A stretch of 64,000 bases of DNA from Dehalococcoidia bacterium (GTDB lineage: Bacteria > Chloroflexota > Dehalococcoidia > GIF9 > AB-539-J10), in the NCBI GenBank assembly GCA_016930935.1, contig JAFGFT010000072.1, positions 1 through 64,000 of the forward strand, in the 5' to 3' direction. The notes beneath the pieces are model-generated. The model searched no databases. It had not been told where the DNA came from and was given only the letters and a program-made list of their open reading frames with translations. Below are positions 23,596 to 52,627 of the stretch, in pieces; within the stretch, counting starts at the first letter, position 1; each line of letters opens with the position of its first letter. Made by a program: the position numbers and the translations under genes.

Positions 23596-23624
23596 TTGAC
23601 ATTCGTGAAGGAGGGAACTAGAAT
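23596..23624 (+). promoter_or_regulatory. Near-consensus promoter of the CetZ-like gene, predicted leaderless
   Basis: TTGACA (23596-23601) and TAGAAT (23619-23624) are separated by exactly 17 bases. Only six bases separate the -10 from the ATG at 23631, so transcription should begin at about the start codon. An AAGGAGGG inside the spacer is too far upstream to serve as a ribosome site and would not be in the transcript. Confidence 0.75.
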
Positions 23625-23630
23625 AACGAT

Positions 23631-24803
23631 ATGAAGCTGCTGGTGATAGGCTTGGGACAATGTGGTGGGCGGATTGCGGATAGATTCGCCCGCTTGAACA
23701 AGAGAGGACATGCGCTCCGTGGAATGGATACCCTTGCCGGAGTGTTTGCAATCAACACAGATGTGACGGACCTCAGTGGTCTGCGGACCATCAAGCCTGA
23801 TTACAGGCACCGCATTCTGATTGGCGCTCAGCGCACGAACGGTCACGGTGTGGGCAAGATCAGCGAGTTGGGAGCAGAGATAGCGAACGAGGATGTCGAC
23901 AAAGTAATCGATGCCATTCGTTCCGCTCCGGGCTTCTATGAAACGGATGCGTTCCTGCTCTGCGCCGGTGCTGCCGGCGGTACTGGTTCGGGTTCAATCG
24001 GCGTGTTGACGAAGCATCTCAAGGAGCGATACATCGGGAAGCCGGTGTACAACGTTGTGGTGCTGCCTTTCCGTCAGGAAGAGACGACCGAAACGAGGAC
24101 TATCTACAATACGGCGACATGTCTGAAGTCGACGTATCTTGTTGCTGATGCCGTGTTCCTGATTGATAATCAGCGCTATGTGAGGAAGGACGCCCCTGCT
24201 CAGAACAACCTCAACACAATCAATGCGAAGGTGGCTGAACCCTTCTATAATGTGTTGTGCGCAGGGGAGGAAACCAACCAACAGTTCGTTGGAGCGAAGA
24301 CACTTGATGCCGGAGACATCATTCAGACTCTGGCAGGGTGGACGGTCATTGGTGGTGGCATGTCACGCTTGGAGCGGAGACTGCCTTTCTGCGGTCCAAA
24401 ACGCGATTTCCGTGACAAGATGATGGAGACGAGTCGGGCTTCGCACGCCATGGACCAGGCCATTAGTGAACTGTCCATGACTATAGACCCGACGGATGCA
24501 GGAAGGGCGCTCTATCTGCTGACGGCTCCTGCTCGTGAGATGAGCATGGATGTCATGAAGCAGTTGGGTGACAACCTGAAGAACCTTGCACCAAACGCAC
24601 TCATCCGTAGCGGTGACTACCCTCGTGACAGCAAGCAGGTTGATGTGACGCTCGTGATGTCGGAGATTGGCAATGTGCGGAAGATAACCGACTACTTCAC
24701 CAAGGCAATCGACCTTATCTCTGTCATGAAGGCGAAGCGTGGACTTGGCTACCAGTCGAGGAAACTCGAAGAGTCATTCGACGAGATTCCTGTACTACTG
24801 TAG
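23631..24803 (+). CDS. CetZ-like tubulin-superfamily GTPase
   Basis: 390 residues. The N-terminal GTPase domain begins LLVIGLGQCGGRIAD (nucleotide-binding glycine loop), with FAINTD near 40, the ILIGAQRTNGHGVG segment at 62-75 followed by ELGAE, and the tubulin signature GGTGSGS at 116-122. The GHGVG...ELGAE segment matches archaeal CetZ proteins better than FtsZ. The FtsZ C-terminal conserved peptide (such as DVPSFLRR) is absent; the tail ends EESFDEIPVLL. A normal ftsZ exists at 49 kb, so this is a second tubulin homologue. CetZ proteins act in cell shape in archaea. Two coiled-coil rod proteins face it from the opposite strand. Confidence 0.88.
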   Translation: MKLLVIGLGQCGGRIADRFARLNKRGHALRGMDTLAGVFAINTDVTDLSGLRTIKPDYRHRILIGAQRTNGHGVGKISELGAEIANEDVDKVIDAIRSAPGFYETDAFLLCAGAAGGTGSGSIGVLTKHLKERYIGKPVYNVVVLPFRQEETTETRTIYNTATCLKSTYLVADAVFLIDNQRYVRKDAPAQNNLNTINAKVAEPFYNVLCAGEETNQQFVGAKTLDAGDIIQTLAGWTVIGGGMSRLERRLPFCGPKRDFRDKMMETSRASHAMDQAISELSMTIDPTDAGRALYLLTAPAREMSMDVMKQLGDNLKNLAPNALIRSGDYPRDSKQVDVTLVMSEIGNVRKITDYFTKAIDLISVMKAKRGLGYQSRKLEESFDEIPVLL

Positions 24804-24828
24804 CTGCTGTTCTTGAAGAATGTAATGA

Positions 24829-24863
24829 AGCTGCCCCCTGCTTTTTGGAAGCAAGGGGCAGCT
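24829..24863. terminator. Hairpin terminator between the tubulin and rod-protein genes
   Basis: AGCTGCCCCCTGC pairs with GCAAGGGGCAGCT across a 9-base loop, 12 of 13 pairs formed. It sits 26 bases after the tubulin stop and 40 bases after the stop of the opposing gene, so it may serve both strands. A short CTTTG follows on the plus strand, and no long T-run is present on either side. Confidence 0.75.
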
Positions 24864-24902
24864 CTTTGTGTCCATTGACTGGGATTGTCTTTGGACCGCT
24901 GC

Positions 24903-25448
24903 TTATCTGCGGGCCTTGGTGAAGACCGTCCACGTGCGGGCCATCGCCTCCGCATGGGCAACCCTGGCCTTCTTCTCGGCTTCGTCTCTTTCCTTCAGCG
25001 CTTGTGTGGAGGCTTCATCAAAGGACTTCTTCGCTGAAACCACGCTGTCTTCGTGCGCCTTGCGCAGTTGAGCGAGGCTTTCCTCGAAGACGCGCTGACT
25101 CTGCGCGGTGCCGTCGTCAAGGGCTTTCTTCGCCTGCGCGATAGTGGTGTCGTAATGCTTCCTTGCCTGAGCTATCGCATCGACGGAGGCATGGCGGGCA
25201 CGGTCGAGGGAATCAGAGTAGGCCTTCTCTGCCTTGTGTTCCTGGTCCTTGTAGGCGTTCTCAAGTTGGCGTTCCGCTTCAACATACGCAACGTACGCGG
25301 CAACCGCGCGTTGTTGAGTCTCATCCAGAAAATCCATGGTTGGCTCGGCCGGTTTCGCAGCCTGCGTTGTGTTGTTGGCCTGTGCGGTGTCATCAGCCTG
25401 CGTTGTGGTCTCTTTCTGCTTGACCGGTGCTTCTTCCACGTTTGCCAT
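24903..25448 (-). CDS. Rod-like protein of eleven consecutive 11-residue repeats
   Basis: 181 residues, not assigned to a known family. Residues 1-38 are a polar Thr/Gln/Ala-rich low-complexity tail. From Tyr55 to Val175 the sequence divides without gaps into eleven hendecads. Position 1 is often aromatic (Y55, Y66, Y77, Y99, F121, F143), position 3 is nearly always Asp or Glu, position 8 is mostly Ala, and positions 9-10 are often basic. It should form a continuous, slightly right-handed amphipathic helix or coiled coil. No signal peptide or membrane segment. The start at 25448 has AAAGGAGGG eight bases upstream. It lies 96 bases after the longer repeat protein, probably in the same transcript, and faces the CetZ-like gene. 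Confidence 0.8.
   Translation of the reverse strand: MANVEEAPVKQKETTTQADDTAQANNTTQAAKPAEPTMDFLDETQQRAVAAYVAYVEAERQLENAYKDQEHKAEKAYSDSLDRARHASVDAIAQARKHYDTTIAQAKKALDDGTAQSQRVFEESLAQLRKAHEDSVVSAKKSFDEASTQALKERDEAEKKARVAHAEAMARTWTVFTKARR
24924..25286 (-). repeat. Protein-level 11-residue tandem repeats (11 units)
   Basis: Codons 55-175 of the 181-residue rod protein encode eleven gapless hendecads. Units begin at residues 55, 66, 77, 88, 99, 110, 121, 132, 143, 154 and 165. An acidic residue is at unit position 3 in ten of eleven. The DNA copies are diverged, so the periodicity is selected at protein level. Confidence 0.8.
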
Positions 25449-25544
25449 TAGTGAAGCCCTCCTTTGTAGTTGAGTCTCTATTGCTGTCTGATGCGAGCAC
25501 GCGTGACGCACCGGAACGTAGTGGGCATGGTGAAATGAATGCCA

Positions 25545-27116
25545 CTAATCATAGTCGTCGTCTTTCTGGGCTTCAAGGGGTTTGTCTTTGTCCGTTGCGT
25601 ACATCTTGGCCAGGAATTTGAGCCTCGATTCTATGTCCCTCTTGGGCTCACGGGACCGGAGAGGTTGTCTTGACTCGTCCAGATCGACGCGGCTGAGAGC
25701 ATCTTCAAAGAGCTGTGAGGAAGGGGTTTCAAGCGGTTCCGGAGCCTCCTGGCTTAGCTTCTCTGCTCCTGCGACCGCATCCTCAAAAATACGTGCGGAG
25801 GCGCGCACTGCTTTGCGCGCGGCCTTGTTCGTCTCTTCAGCCTTCCTGAGTGCTTCCTGTAGAATCTTCACGGATGCGACGACCGTGTCTCGTGCGGCCG
25901 TAACGGACGACTCCGTGGCTTCCCTGACGACTCGTTTGGACTCTTCCGCCACTCGCACTGTCTCACGTTCGGTCTGCTCTGAGCGGCGAATCGCCTCGGC
26001 TGCCAGTCTCTGGGCCTCCTCCGCGGCTTCGGTCGCGAGCTTTCCAATCTCCTCCGTGCGGCTGGATGCCTCCTCCGTAGCTTTCATGGCATCCTCGGCC
26101 AGCCGCGTTGCGGCGGAACTGACCTGTTCGGTTCTTCTTATTGCCTCGCGTGATGCGCGTTCGGCTTCCTCTGCCTTGCCCATTGCTTCCTGAGAGGCGC
26201 GGGTGGCCGATTCTATTGCTTCGTTGCTCTCCCTCACGGAAGCCTCAATTCGAGCGAGCGCTTCCTGAGAGGCCCTGATTTGCTTGTTTGCCTCTCGCTG
26301 GCTGAGCTTGCCTGCCTCATCTGCACGCCGCAGTGCTGCTTCAAAAGCGCGGTTTGACTGCTCTGATGCTGCGTTGGATGCCGCGATGGCTTCCTCGGCG
26401 CGTGCGCGCGCCTCCTCAAATGCGGCTGAGGAAAGTGCGGCTGAATCGGAGGCTGATTGAAAGACTCGCTCGGCGCGGGCCACCGCTTTCTCTGATGCTT
26501 TCTGCGCGTCTCTTGATGCCTTCTCAGAGGAGCGCGCTACACGCTCCGCAGCGTTCTGTGCCTCTTGTGATGCTCTGACGGACTCTTCGGCGGCACGTAT
26601 CGCCTGGTCGCGTTGACTCTCTGCTTGAATCACGGATTGACGGGATGCCTGGCGGGCTTCTTCGGCTTTCTGCTGCGCTGCCTGTGCAGTCTTCTCCACC
26701 TGGGTGAAGAGTCTCTGTGAAGAACTGAGGGATTCCTCCACCGACTTGACCGCTTGGTTCACGAGTTGCTCAAGCCGTGCAACTGACTCATGAAATGACC
26801 GTGCGTTGTTCTGCGCGGCGGCGGTTGATGATTGGAGAGCAGCCTCGGCAGTATCGATGGCTGATTGGGCCATGCCTGTCGTCTTCTCGGAAGACTGTGC
26901 GGCCTTGTGGCTTAGCTGAGACGCCCTTTCCACTGCTTCTTCGGCTAGCCTTCTTGCCTCATCCGCAGAAGCACTTGCCTCGCGCCCGATGTTCTCAAGG
27001 CGCGTGATGGCGTTCTCTGATGCCTTGCGTGACTGTTCTGCTGCATGTCGCGCAGCCAGGTTCATCTGCTCGGCTCGTGCCACAGCCTCTTGGAAGGAAG
27101 GTGACTCGTTGTCCAT
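25545..27116 (-). CDS. Long alanine-rich rod protein with sixteen gapless 25-residue repeats
   Basis: 523 residues, unassigned. Residues 11-410 divide into sixteen 25-residue units with no gaps. Unit position 1 is Ala in thirteen of sixteen, position 6 is Glu or Asp in fifteen, position 4 is often Arg, and several units end RASQE. After residue 410 the phase shifts by 11, and two more units begin at 422 and 447. A 25-residue period equals two heptads plus one hendecad (7 turns), predicting a nearly straight coiled coil about 60 nm long if fully helical. The last 65 residues are non-repetitive, basic then acidic, with no membrane anchor. It is upstream of the hendecad protein and near the CetZ-like gene, so a cytoskeletal or chromosome-organising role is possible but unproven. 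Confidence 0.85.
   Translation of the reverse strand: MDNESPSFQEAVARAEQMNLAARHAAEQSRKASENAITRLENIGREASASADEARRLAEEAVERASQLSHKAAQSSEKTTGMAQSAIDTAEAALQSSTAAAQNNARSFHESVARLEQLVNQAVKSVEESLSSSQRLFTQVEKTAQAAQQKAEEARQASRQSVIQAESQRDQAIRAAEESVRASQEAQNAAERVARSSEKASRDAQKASEKAVARAERVFQSASDSAALSSAAFEEARARAEEAIAASNAASEQSNRAFEAALRRADEAGKLSQREANKQIRASQEALARIEASVRESNEAIESATRASQEAMGKAEEAERASREAIRRTEQVSSAATRLAEDAMKATEEASSRTEEIGKLATEAAEEAQRLAAEAIRRSEQTERETVRVAEESKRVVREATESSVTAARDTVVASVKILQEALRKAEETNKAARKAVRASARIFEDAVAGAEKLSQEAPEPLETPSSQLFEDALSRVDLDESRQPLRSREPKRDIESRLKFLAKMYATDKDKPLEAQKDDDYD
25887..27086 (-). repeat. Protein-level 25-residue tandem repeats (16 units)
   Basis: Codons 11-410 of the 523-residue rod protein. 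Units start at residues 11, 36, 61, 86 and so on to 386 in exact steps of 25 (75 bases). The anchor pattern is A-[VIL]-x-R-x-E at unit positions 1-6; only unit 3 has Ser in place of the acidic residue. The nucleotide copies are diverged. Confidence 0.85.
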
Positions 27117-27180
27117 TTATCTGTTGCCTTTCCACCAATGCTCGCCCGAACAGGGACTACAACTGCGAGCACCAAGCGGT

Positions 27181-27209
27181 ATTGTAGTAGTGCAGTTCTC
27201 TATTTTCAA
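27181..27209 (-). promoter_or_regulatory. Promoter of the rod-protein genes
   Basis: On the minus strand TTGAAA (27204-27209) and TACAAT (27181-27186) are 17 bases apart. The -35 overlaps the last bases of the upstream nitrilase-family gene. The predicted start site near 27174 gives a leader of about 58 bases. Confidence 0.65.
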
Positions 27210-48271: not shown

Positions 48272-48766
48272 TTAGCGATGGCTCTGCAGTGGGCTCTCGC
48301 ATGGCGCCTGCTGTGCTTTGTCGTTGCTGGACAGGCTTTCGAGTGCGTCCTTCAGGGCTCCAATGTCGGTGAACTCGCGATAGACGCTCGCGAAGCGAAT
48401 GTAGGCAATGTGGTCCAGGCTGGCCAGCTGAGTCATGGCGAGGTCACCAATCGCCGTGCTGCTGATTTCCGCCCGGCCGGAATTGAGGAGAGACTCCTCA
48501 ATGGCACTCACGAGCTTGTCTACTGAACCCGCGGGGAGAGGGCGTTTCTCGCAGGCTTTCCTCATGCCCGCGGCGAGCTTGTGGGAGTCGAATTCTTCCC
48601 GGCGGCCATCCTTCTTGACGACATAGAAGGCGTGAGCCTGTACTCGCTCAGAGGTGGAAAACCGGATTCCGCATGCGGAGCACACGCGTCTTCGCCTCAC
48701 TTCTCCCTCAAGGCTGCGTGAGTCTACAACACGGGACTCCGATGCGCCGCAATACGGGCACTTCAT
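48272..48766 (-). CDS. nrdR: Transcriptional repressor NrdR
   Basis: 164 residues. The N-terminal zinc ribbon starts MKCPYCGASESRVVDSR with the second pair in RRRRVCSACGIRFST, followed by an ATP-cone domain (VKKDGRREEFDSHKLAAGM). NrdR senses ATP/dATP and represses ribonucleotide reductase genes. The ATG at 48766 is chosen over one 9 bases upstream because AGGGGGTG lies six bases before it. It is directly upstream of nrdJ. Confidence 0.96.
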   Translation of the reverse strand: MKCPYCGASESRVVDSRSLEGEVRRRRVCSACGIRFSTSERVQAHAFYVVKKDGRREEFDSHKLAAGMRKACEKRPLPAGSVDKLVSAIEESLLNSGRAEISSTAIGDLAMTQLASLDHIAYIRFASVYREFTDIGALKDALESLSSNDKAQQAPCESPLQSHR

Positions 48767-48800
48767 GCAGAACACCCCCTACAACTTGTGGCTTGTGGCC

Positions 48801-48829
48801 ATTCTAGCACCACATATAGGGTGTTTCAT
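48801..48829 (-). promoter_or_regulatory. nrdR-nrdJ promoter with a possible NrdR box
   Basis: TTTCAT complement ATGAAA (48824-48829) and TAGAAT (48801-48806) are 17 bases apart on the minus strand. The 16-base ACACCCTATATGTGGT (48809-48824) lies across the spacer and matches the recalled NrdR box consensus at 11 of 16 positions. The usual second box was not found. Confidence 0.5.
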
Positions 48830-48833
48830 AATG

Positions 48834-48871
48834 AAGAAGGGGAGGATGGCATATGCCATCCTCCCCTTCTT
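48834..48871 (-). terminator. Perfect 38-base palindrome after ftsZ
   Basis: AAGAAGGGGAGGATGGCAT and its exact complement, six bases after the ftsZ stop. It can form a 17-bp stem with a small loop. No T-run of note follows on the minus strand. It separates ftsAZ from the nrdR promoter. Confidence 0.8.
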
Positions 48872-48877
48872 GAAGGT

Positions 48878-50002
48878 CTATTGCCAGGAAAGCCGTGAAG
48901 GCTCGGGTTTCACATCTCCCCTCATAGCCTGTGTCAGTTGACCACTGCTGTGGTGCTGGCCGCGGCGCAGGAAGGAAGGTACATCGAGACTCTCGCCACC
49001 ACCCTTCATCAGCCGGCGCAGTTCCTCGGTGTCGGGTGAGCCCTTGCCGTACTGGCTCGTGAAGCCTGTCGCGATGACGGTTATCTTGATGTCCGCATCC
49101 ATCTTCGGGTCGAACACAACGCCGAAAATGATGTTGGCCCGTGGGTCAACCGCATCACTGATGACACTGGCTGCCTCGTTGCACTCGAAGAGCGTCAAAC
49201 TGGGTCCGCCGGTGATGTTGAACAGCACGCCCTTGGCTCCGGTAACCTGCGCGTCCAGAAGAGGACTGGCGAGTGCAGCCTTTGCCGCGTCGACTGCCCT
49301 GTTCTGGCCGGTGCCTCGTCCTACGGACATCCAGGCGGGGCCTGCGTTCCGCATGACGGATTTGATGTCTGCGAAGTCAAGGTTGATGAGGCCAGGGACT
49401 GTGACGACTTCGGAGATTGCCTGGACACCAAGGAGAAGGGCGTCGTCAGCCATCCTGAAAGCCGAGTCTACAGTGGTCTTGTTGTCACAGAGCTGAAGGA
49501 GTCTGTCATTCGGGATAATGATGAGTGTGTCTACCTTATCGGTTAGGTTGAGAATACCCTCTTCAGCTACCTCTGAGCGGTGTCCACCCTCGAATTTGAA
49601 GGGCTTGGTGACCACGCCGATGGTGAGAGCTCCAGACTCTTTGGCAATCTCAGCGACCACGGGGATGCCGCCGGTTCCGGTGCCGCCACCCATACCTGCG
49701 GCGACGAAAACCATGTCGGCTCCCTCTACGACTTCCTGAATCGTCTGTTTGCTCTCTTCTGCGGCTTTGCCACCTACTCTGTGGTCACCGCCGGCGCCAA
49801 GGCCGCGGGTGAGTTTCTCACCGAGCTGGACGCGGGTCGAAGCCTCGGCCAGTGCGAGAGCCTGGGCATCAGTGTTCATGACGATGAACTCGACGCCTCT
49901 GATATCCTCTCGGATCATTCGATTGATTGCGTTGGTGCCACCGCCCCCGATGCCGATCGCCTTGATCCTTGCCGGAGCGGGTGTATAAGTTGTCTTAGCC
50001 AT
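48878..50002 (-). CDS. ftsZ: Cell division protein FtsZ
   Basis: 374 residues. [15 protein letters not shown] (15-30) and the tubulin signature [11 protein letters not shown] near 110 bind GTP, and the T7 loop is intact ([12 protein letters not shown]). After a linker, the C-terminal conserved peptide DVPSFLRR is present at about 338-345, followed by about 24 further residues. It forms the division ring. It is 41 bases downstream of ftsA. Confidence 0.97.
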
Positions 50003-50043
50003 TTCTACCTCCTAAGTCTTTGCAACTTGTCGCCACTCTGCAG

Positions 50044-51270
50044 CTATCCATGGAAGAGCTTTCGCAACATTCGGGAAATACCGCCGAACATGCTGGTGCG
50101 CTTGCTCTGCCATGCGGAAGGCTCTCGGTTGCGTGCCTGCCACAGAATGAGTCCCAGCGTTGTCGCGTAAGCAGAGTCACGCAGGATGTCAGTGATTCCA
50201 TAGACGCCACTGCCAAGTGGCGCGCCCTTCCGAACGGGCATCTTGAGTTGGCCCTTGCCCAACTCAACCAATCCATCGAGGTTGGCTGTACCACCGGTGA
50301 GAACTAGCCCGCAGGGTGCGAGTCTCTGGTAGTCGGTGGTCGGCAGCTCCAGGAGAATCAACTCGTAGAGTTCCTCCATTCTTGAACGAACGATGTCGCA
50401 GAGTTCTCTGTACGAACCGGCGTGGCCGTTTTCAATGCCCGTCAGTTCTGTCTCTCTGCCGGTGTCAAGACCGGGAGTCACGTTGCCGTAGGTCTTCTTC
50501 ATTCGCTCCGCTACGTGGAACGGAAGGCCAAGGCCTATGGCGATGTCACTTGTTATCTGGTAGCCGGCGACCGGTATGATGGCTGTGTGGTAGATATCGC
50601 CATCCTTGAAGACGGCGATGTCTGTGGTGCCACCTCCGAGGTCGGCCATGATGATGCCGCTCTCGCGCTCTTGTGGGGTGAGGACTGCCTCGCCACTGGC
50701 CAGAGGCTCAAGGACCAGGTCTTCAACCTGTACCCCTATGCTTCTGATGACCTTCACCAGATTCTGGACTGAGGACACTGAGGCTGTGATGATGTGCGTC
50801 TCAACGTCGAGTCGCGTGCCGTGCATCCCCACGGGTTGCTTGACGCGCTCTTCTCCGTCGAGTGTGTAGTAGCGCGGGATTGCATGCAACAGCTTCTTGC
50901 CCTCAGGCACTGTCACACTCTTGGAGGCAGCAAGGACTCTTCGCAGGTCATCGGAACGAACGAGACGGTCGGCTCGTGGTATCGCTACCACTCCCTTGTT
51001 GTTAATGCTACTGATGTGTCGCCCAGTCACTCCGACGAATACCGAGTCGACGCGCGTCCCACTAATCTTCTGCGCTTCCTGGATCGACGTGGCGATTGCT
51101 TCCTTCGCCTCATCCATGTTGACGACGATTCCCTTGTGCAGCCCATGACTGGGCACAACGCCAACACCAAGAATCTCGATGTCGTCCTGACTCCTGACAT
51201 TCGCCACGATAGTGGCTATCTTTGTGGTTCCCACATCAATAGCGGAAATGATCCCTTTGGTCATTTTCAC
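50044..51270 (-). CDS. ftsA: Cell division protein FtsA
   Basis: 408 residues of the actin/Hsp70 fold. IISAIDVGTTKIATIV (8-23) is the phosphate 1 motif, IMADLGGGTTDIAVF near 205 the phosphate 2 motif, and VLTGGTANLDGL near 335 the adenosine motif. A C-terminal amphipathic helix (ISRMLRKLFHG) should anchor it to the membrane. It tethers FtsZ. It lies 38 bases after rsmH with no ftsL, ftsI or mur genes between, unlike walled bacteria. Confidence 0.96.
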   Translation of the reverse strand: MKMTKGIISAIDVGTTKIATIVANVRSQDDIEILGVGVVPSHGLHKGIVVNMDEAKEAIATSIQEAQKISGTRVDSVFVGVTGRHISSINNKGVVAIPRADRLVRSDDLRRVLAASKSVTVPEGKKLLHAIPRYYTLDGEERVKQPVGMHGTRLDVETHIITASVSSVQNLVKVIRSIGVQVEDLVLEPLASGEAVLTPQERESGIIMADLGGGTTDIAVFKDGDIYHTAIIPVAGYQITSDIAIGLGLPFHVAERMKKTYGNVTPGLDTGRETELTGIENGHAGSYRELCDIVRSRMEELYELILLELPTTDYQRLAPCGLVLTGGTANLDGLVELGKGQLKMPVRKGAPLGSGVYGITDILRDSAYATTLGLILWQARNREPSAWQSKRTSMFGGISRMLRKLFHG

Positions 51271-51308
51271 CTCCTAAGATTATGGTCGTCACTCGAACGC
51301 ACGTGTTC

Positions 51309-52205
51309 TCACGCGATACGTTCAGCAACTCGGAGTCGCGCACTGCGACTGCGTGGATTGGAGTGACTCTCCAACGTAGTAGGTCGGATGACCTTCTTCG
51401 TAATGAGCGCGAAGGCGTTGTCGGCGGCCTTCCCGCGCATGAACTGCTTCACGATGCGGTCTTCCAGAGAATGGTAGCTGAGCACAACCAGTCTGCCCTG
51501 TGAGCGTAGAAGGCTCACAGTCTGGTCTAGTCCCAGCGCAAGACTCTCGAGTTCCTTGTTGACCGCAATGCGAAGAGCCATGAATGTGCGGGTCGCAGGG
51601 TGGATTCTTCCACGCCTGTTCCCGAGGACCTGCTGCACCAGGTGCGCAAGTCGTAATGTGGACAGGATTGGCCGGTTCTGGACAATCCTGTGCGCGATTT
51701 GTCGAGAGTACCGTTCTTCACCGTACTCCCAGAGGATGCGAGCTATCTCTTGCTCGCTATAGCTATTGACGATGTCTGCAGCGCTCACCCCTTCATTTGT
51801 GTCAAAACGCATGTCGAGTGGAGCTTCACGCTGGAAGCTGAAACCGCGGTCCGCGGAATCCAGCTGCATCGAGGATATCCCGAGGTCGAAAAATATGCCG
51901 TCGGTTGAGTTGAAGCCCTTCTCGCGGCAGATTTCTCCGAGATGGGAGAAATTGCCCTGTGCGGCGGTGAAGGACTCACCGAATTCTGAGAGTGTCTTCT
52001 GTGCCAGTTCAATGGCCGAGGAGTCTGCGTCTATGCCGAGGAGGCGGCCCGATGGCTGAATCCGCTCAAGTATGGCACGAGAGTGTCCGCCTGCCCCCAA
52101 TGTGCAATCAACGTACGTGCCGCCCGGATGAGTCCGCAATCCTTCCATAACCTCAGTCACCATTACGGGGACATGGGGGGCCAGCGACTCTGTGTCGTTG
52201 CTCAA
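51309..52205 (-). CDS. rsmH: 16S rRNA (cytosine-1402 N4) methyltransferase
   Basis: About 298 residues. HVPVMVTEVMEGL starts the domain, DCTLGAGGHSRAIL is the SAM site, and RGFSFQREAPLDMRFD is the family signature near 125. The frame is open to 52271. The TTG at 52205 is preferred because it overlaps the mraZ stop as TTGA and has GGGAGGA just upstream. It methylates C1402 of 16S rRNA. Confidence 0.95.
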   Translation of the reverse strand: MSNDTESLAPHVPVMVTEVMEGLRTHPGGTYVDCTLGAGGHSRAILERIQPSGRLLGIDADSSAIELAQKTLSEFGESFTAAQGNFSHLGEICREKGFNSTDGIFFDLGISSMQLDSADRGFSFQREAPLDMRFDTNEGVSAADIVNSYSEQEIARILWEYGEERYSRQIAHRIVQNRPILSTLRLAHLVQQVLGNRRGRIHPATRTFMALRIAVNKELESLALGLDQTVSLLRSQGRLVVLSYHSLEDRIVKQFMRGKAADNAFALITKKVIRPTTLESHSNPRSRSARLRVAERIA

Positions 52206-52627
52206 CTTCCTCCCAGGCCTTCCAGTATCTGTTCCGCCTGTTCTTCGGAAGCAGACTTTTCTGCCTTCCAAAGGTCTTCATTCCAGAGTTCTACGGATTG
52301 GTTCACTCCTACGACAACAACGCTCTCCCCGATCTCTGCATGCAGGCGCAGGGGTAGCGGTAGCGCTATTCTTCCTTGCTTGTCGAATGCAGCCGAAAAC
52401 GCCGTTCCGAACACGGCTCTGTTGAGCTTGCGCTGACTCGTCGATGTCACGGCTTTGGCTGCCAGTTCATCTGCGAGTCGCTTCCATTCTGCGAGGGGAT
52501 ACACCCTGATACATTTCTCCGAGCCCTTCGTCAGCACGACGGTATCTCGCATGTCCCGGCGGAACTTGGGAGGTAGAGGCACTCTTCCTTTGTCGTCTAG
52601 TTTGTAGACATGCTCTCCAAAGAACAT
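52202..52627 (-). CDS. mraZ: Transcriptional regulator MraZ
   Basis: 141 residues with two SpoVT/AbrB-like repeats: [19 protein letters not shown] near the start, and [21 protein letters not shown] in the second half. MraZ regulates the division cluster by binding short repeats near its own start; such repeats are present upstream. It heads mraZ-rsmH-ftsA-ftsZ. Confidence 0.96.

Follow-up and report, generated by a model that had tools for sequence, protein, structure and literature searches.

A bacterial CetZ-type tubulin homologue conserved beside two coiled-coil rod proteins: a candidate cytoskeletal module of wall-less Dehalococcoidia

How bacteria without peptidoglycan hold their shape and divide is an open question. 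A gene block that may bear on it lies in the first 64,000 nucleotides of contig JAFGFT010000072.1 of a Dehalococcoidia bacterium (assembly GCA_016930935.1), a stretch referred to as a whole as the window. Here cetZ-A (23631-24803, plus strand) encodes a 390-aa tubulin-superfamily GTPase of the CetZ type and faces two minus-strand genes, rodS (24903-25448) and rodL (25545-27116), which encode coiled-coil proteins of 181 and 523 aa. The linkage of CetZ-A to the rods is conserved and has a single origin. We consider it about an even chance (roughly 0.5) that CetZ-A, RodL and RodS constitute a cytoskeletal module, conserved in wall-less Dehalococcoidia, that is GTP-driven, tethered to the membrane and devoted to shape or division. 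An undescribed cytoskeleton was what the original prediction had proposed from the window alone; the placement of the GTPase and the conserved linkage lend it substance, and neither the rod module nor the FtsZ-like tail discussed below has been described for bacterial or Chloroflexota CetZ in the open-licence literature searched, while its function is one that we infer.

CetZ-A belongs to CetZ by Pfam, PDB search, predicted fold and tree. It matches PF00091 at 1e-31 (111.2 bits, curated cut-off 33) and CetZ_C, PF21011, at 1e-13 (51.7 bits, curated cut-off 21.6), and its residues 70-83 read NGHGVGKISELGAE, which confirms the GHGVG...ELGAE segment by which a tubulin-superfamily GTPase of CetZ style had been recognized. 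The top matches of a PDB sequence search are CetZ1, CetZ2 and the Methanosaeta CetZ (MtCetZ). In line with these matches, the AlphaFold2 (AF2) model, with a predicted local distance difference test score (pLDDT) of 85.6, retrieves three archaeal CetZ structures at ranks 1-3 of a Foldseek search (4b46, 4b45 and 3zid) and superimposes on 4b46 with a template modelling (TM) score of 0.93, normalised by 4b46. In a 40-sequence placement tree of 12 FtsZ, 8 haloarchaeal CetZ and 20 bacterial CetZ proteins, from which TubZ was left out, FtsZ is split from archaeal and bacterial CetZ with support of 100/100 on a stem that is 3.5 changes per column long. CetZ-A falls with archaeal CetZ, represented by haloarchaeal sequences only, and outside ordinary FtsZ, the group in which its placement would have spoken against the original prediction.

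Other identities were considered and rejected. Besides its position on the tree, CetZ-A scores 61.5 bits against TIGR00065, for which the cut-off is 295.2, and has no PF12327 (FtsZ_C) match, which rules out FtsZ. TubZ is disfavoured by the chromosomal context and by its weaker score in the PDB search (28.5 bits for 4xcq vs 196.7 bits for CetZ1), and a viral origin by viral contigs, which hold no relative of the protein. CetZ has been described as specific to archaea (PMC9856176), and it was as an archaeal protein that the original prediction knew it; the CetZ placement stands, but CetZ-like proteins with CetZ_C similarity had already been reported from Dehalococcoidia, where their distribution is sparse and paraphyletic (Santana-Molina et al., 2023, PMC9871819).

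The catalytic elements of the GTPase are intact. The T3 loop GHGVG (residues 71-75; 23841-23855) is nearly invariant across the clade, the T4 tubulin signature GGTGSG (residues 116-121; 23976-23993) is invariant, and so are, within clade A (see below), the acidic residues D226 and D229 of the T7 loop (LDAGDI, 24306-24317; NLDFADI in FtsZ); GGTGSG, D226 and D229 are without exception among 39 sequences. Such conservation leads one to expect that the protein hydrolyses GTP as it assembles.

Evidence that ties the rods to this GTPase comes from a tree of 129 CetZ representatives, in which the window protein and other Dehalococcoidia CetZs form clade A, with 46 members (Shimodaira-Hasegawa-like approximate likelihood ratio test, SH-aLRT, 100; 99/98 in a smaller tree). 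Rods lie convergent at the cetZ 3' end in 44 of the 46 clade-A loci and in none outside the clade, and the trait requires three changes on the 129 rows: one gain and two losses. The two exceptions, L157 and L185, were checked by hand and have no rods, and a rod match behind the CetZ L099_9247 proved to be an artefact of a tandem cetZ. RodL (41/46 loci) and RodS (32/46) head the list of genes found near clade-A cetZ. Within the window's family, all 14 further neighbourhoods around the orthologous CetZ have convergent RodS and RodL, with the block staying in place while its tgt, nnr and nitrilase neighbours vary, and at least nine further families of the class also have the block. Conservation extends to CetZ identities as low as 54%, with the rods diverging faster than the GTPase. 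In a set of 84 genomes from the order, 22 carry CetZ-A and 21 of these also have RodL, with one weak match among the other 62; in the remaining carrier (G015), the gene positions suggest that the contig breaks off at the rods. Thus the rods are present in most carriers of this GTPase, and the convergent arrangement that had been predicted, with both rod genes on the minus strand and their 3' ends pointing toward cetZ-A in the map of open reading frames (ORFs), is borne out well beyond the window. The description of the rods as dedicated holds in part: they are linked to clade A, but to that one CetZ paralogue only, and RodS is kept without CetZ-A in one genus. In many genomes the block comprises four genes, with forward cetZ-A, reverse rodS and rodL, and a forward cetZ-B beyond them.

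Neither rod has a Pfam match at E<=1 or an NCBIfam match above the cut-off, a single NCBIfam match of RodS (E 0.74) lying far below it. Their repeats are far above what composition would produce: a period of 25 residues (7+7+11) is the strongest in 23 of 24 RodL members, and one of 11 or 22 residues is found in all 20 RodS members, the RodS of the window repeating at 11. The AF2 model of RodL has helices at residues 8-243 and 251-453, a disordered stretch and a short helix at 493-509 (RLKFLAKMY; 25590-25640, minus strand), which is conserved and precedes an acidic tail; with a rise of 0.15 nm per residue, the length of its helical portion would come to about 67 nm. A hidden Markov model (HMM) of the last 55 RodL residues, built from the window's order and searched against 2117 ORFs, recovers, at E<1e-3, 45 of the 57 RodLs from the rest of the class and no other protein. 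By this sequence criterion RodL homology is real, and false homology through shared composition is ruled out by the specificity of the C-terminal helix model. RodS, in turn, conserves the block AYAAYxEAExQVxxAYK and a C-terminal Wx(I/V)(F/Y)xK. Ala-rich coils at L103 and L121, which also scored as RodL, belong to a different family away from CetZ, whose members start with KPLPQILDEMD (L103 15636-17501, L112 15845-16150 and L121 3710-4948) and occur in Dehalococcoides-like and f77 genomes; that of L121 ends in a membrane helix.

At its C-terminus, CetZ-A carries the peptide EIPVLL (24783-24800; clade consensus DIPSLL) after a disordered linker. A tail of the form D-I/V/L-P-S/T/V-L-L after such a linker is present in 105 of the 129 tree rows, including all full-length paralogues, and is absent from haloarchaeal CetZs, from GTPase-degenerate bacterial paralogues and from four archaeal-like bacterial CetZs. 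It resembles, and resemblance is the extent of the comparison, the LDVPSFLRR or similar ending of the FtsZs in CetZ-bearing genomes. In the window, the separate, ordinary ftsZ that had been noted at about 49 kb is confirmed (48878-50002, minus strand; TIGR00065 2.5e-118; tail ...LDVPSFLRR...). It is adjoined by ftsA (50044-51270, minus strand; PF14450, PF02491), a candidate membrane adaptor for both tails, and the simplest reading of the likeness is that CetZ and FtsZ may share their adaptor. Both genes are context, outside the module, and belong to a reduced division cluster mraZ-rsmH-ftsA-ftsZ-nrdR (48272-52627) that contains no murein genes, the mraZ-rsmH-ftsA-ftsZ row included.

The setting in which the module occurs appears to be wall-less. 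FtsW/RodA is encoded by one of 65 CetZ carriers vs 134 of 229 non-carriers among 294 genomes of the class, and the gene of the sole positive carrier (G295) sits at a contig start and is perhaps contamination. A single loss of peptidoglycan synthesis is reported, in the ancestor shared by orders 10-25 of Dehalococcoidia (PMC10284905). The absence of FtsW/RodA from the window's own genome fits this published loss and the earlier suggestion that the cell may lack peptidoglycan. The correlation between CetZ and the lack of FtsW/RodA speaks for the setting and not for causation.

A mechanism for such a module can be outlined. With its T3, T4 and T7 loops intact, CetZ-A would bind and hydrolyse GTP and form protofilaments of the CetZ type, and the disordered linker and DIPSLL peptide could tether these filaments to the membrane via FtsZ's own adaptor or one like it, FtsA being the obvious candidate. 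RodL may form straight coiled-coil rods about 65-70 nm long that include a flexible linker and, toward the C-terminus, a conserved helix for docking, with RodS as a shorter partner from the same operon, and the rods might lie along, cross-link or position the CetZ-A filaments. The resulting cortex could help set the cell shape or the division site without peptidoglycan. A bolder and rather doubtful extension is that CetZ-A, RodL, RodS and often CetZ-B build a composite cortex of tubulin and coiled coils that, in one branch of Dehalococcoidia, replaced peptidoglycan as the scaffold for shape and division, with the FtsZ-like tail re-using an FtsA-type adaptor.

Several observations weigh against a joint module. 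Because wall loss is one old event (PMC10284905), its correlation with CetZ does not amount to a series of independent events, and CetZ is missing from many wall-less relatives. Families f2-f4 carry different CetZs and lack rods, so CetZ function in general does not require them; in Dehalococcoides-like genomes and several relatives, RodL is present but no RodS was found nearby; and since the genes are convergent, their linkage need not mean one transcript. The RodL model has low confidence (pLDDT 57), which is to be expected when a single chain of a coiled coil is modelled alone. Moreover, genus g14 has RodS without CetZ-A or RodL, so that RodS is more than a partner of CetZ and has a CetZ-independent role. 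In that genus (L230-L237), the RodS homologue is followed by a coiled-coil gene of about 350 aa, even in genomes without any CetZ, and the N-terminus of this coil is weakly DivIVA-like (E 0.01, below the cut-off). A search for DivIVA among 31 genomes, comprising the window's own and close relatives, gave one sub-threshold match.

The g14 arrangement, together with the separate promoter-like sites of the convergent genes, is what one would expect if RodL and RodS made up an intermediate-filament-like or polar scaffold of their own that does not touch CetZ-A, the neighbourhood reflecting a shared process, such as division or chromosome positioning, or a shared terminator. We regard this as possible though not favoured, given that, one weak match aside, RodL in the order always accompanies CetZ-A, that rod linkage tracks one CetZ clade and not its paralogues, and that the flanking genes vary while the block stays. 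It is unlikely that CetZ-A is instead a second division protein, which uses its DIPSLL tail to enter the FtsZ ring via the adaptor of FtsZ, with RodL and RodS as ring spacers in a wall-less cytokinesis rather than in shape: the tail does resemble that of FtsZ in the same genomes, where FtsA is kept though the wall genes are gone, but it is common to all full-length paralogues and therefore does not single out CetZ-A, and no linkage to the ftsZ row is seen in the window or the loci read. Adjacency by chance, or by unselected inheritance of gene order, is already disfavoured and very improbable; although gene order can last within a family and many of the loci come from related metagenome-assembled genomes (MAGs), the arrangement persists down to 54% CetZ identity in at least nine families, with faster-diverging rods and changing other neighbours.

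The block itself is compact, its outer limits (23596 and 27209) being the ends of promoter-like hexamers. The one before cetZ-A, TTGACA-17-TAGAAT (23596-23624, plus strand), matches the consensus at 11 of 12 positions, and the one before rodL-rodS, TTGAAA-17-TACAAT (27181-27209, minus strand), at 10 of 12. As the -10 box of the former ends six bases before the cetZ-A start codon, a transcript from it would be leaderless; a GGAGGG lies between its -35 and -10. The 99-bp gap between the stops of cetZ-A and RodS contains a hairpin that is strong on both strands (24829-24863; fold z -5.1 on plus, -7.2 on minus), a probable bidirectional terminator and likely one shared by cetZ-A and the rods. The RodS ORF (24903-25511) opens with GTG at 25511; its start was moved to the ATG at 25448 because AAAGGAGGG precedes that ATG and relatives agree with it. 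After the rods, the genes most often near clade-A cetZ are those of GAPDH, at 21 of the 46 loci, and enolase, at 15 of 46 (e.g., L205 4908-5921 and L111 3654-4925).

Within Chloroflexota, CetZ_C is confined to part of the class Dehalococcoidia (22/301 genomes), and 65 of 294 class genomes encode a CetZ-like protein whose score clearly exceeds the range of FtsZ. The relatives that bear names are MAGs of Dehalococcoidia or Chloroflexi except for a few with probably wrong labels, among them L157, L164 and L169, from MAGs named Syntrophaceae or Deltaproteobacteria at NCBI with a CetZ of the Dehalococcoidia type. Small complete genomes of family f16, probably Dehalococcoides and Dehalogenimonas, also encode CetZ. 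The window's own genome has a second CetZ (L034 8592-9767, C65), which is 49% identical, ends in ...ELPLL and has no adjoining rods. In families f2-f4, paralogues (L062-L067, L049 15070, L051 1212 and L073) have lost the T3 loop, have a mangled T4 signature and lack the DIPSLL tail, and are probably inactive as GTPases to judge by these motifs; at several such loci, the next same-strand gene encodes a 456-aa protein starting with MTLFDL. Four tail-less bacterial CetZs (L069, L114, L116 and L117, from g15, f50, f35 and f14) group with archaeal CetZ and probably derive from a separate transfer, L069 having the strongest CetZ_C score. CetZ is thus not confined to archaea and has expanded in bacteria into several paralogues, of which one has protein partners of its own and one set has lost its GTPase motifs. 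For the question of wall-less shape and division, this provides a defined, conserved gene set in a lineage to which cultivated relatives of the Dehalococcoides type belong. It leads to clear predictions, namely filaments that depend on GTP, binding of the rods and binding of the tail to a membrane adaptor.

Among known systems, archaeal CetZ (Haloferax volcanii CetZ1 and CetZ2, 4b46 and 4b45; Methanosaeta, 3zid) shares PF00091, PF21011 and the GHGVG...ELGAE segment with CetZ-A, has the closest fold and lies on the same side of the FtsZ/CetZ split. CetZ-A differs in being bacterial, in its approximately 29% identity to CetZ1 in the structural alignment and in its convergent rod genes, and its type of tail closes with DIPSLL, in contrast to the LF ending of those haloarchaeal CetZ1/CetZ2-type tails that were read. 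The Chloroflexota CetZ-like proteins reported earlier are very probably of the same family as CetZ-A; that study notes coiled-coil genes beside other archaeal tubulin-like genes, and leaves the Chloroflexota gene neighbourhood, the rod module and the FtsZ-like tail undescribed (PMC9871819). Bacterial FtsZ resembles CetZ-A in combining a GTPase core with a short C-terminal peptide (D-I/V-P-S-L/F-L) after a disordered linker, but CetZ-A is without the FtsZ_C domain, below the TIGR00065 cut-off and outside FtsZ on the tree. Long coiled-coil scaffolds linked to shape or poles include DivIVA, crescentin and FilP/Scy. RodL and RodS are like DivIVA and intermediate-filament-like proteins in being such scaffolds, and differ from them in belonging to no Pfam family and in the 25-residue repeat and C-terminal helix that are RodL's own.

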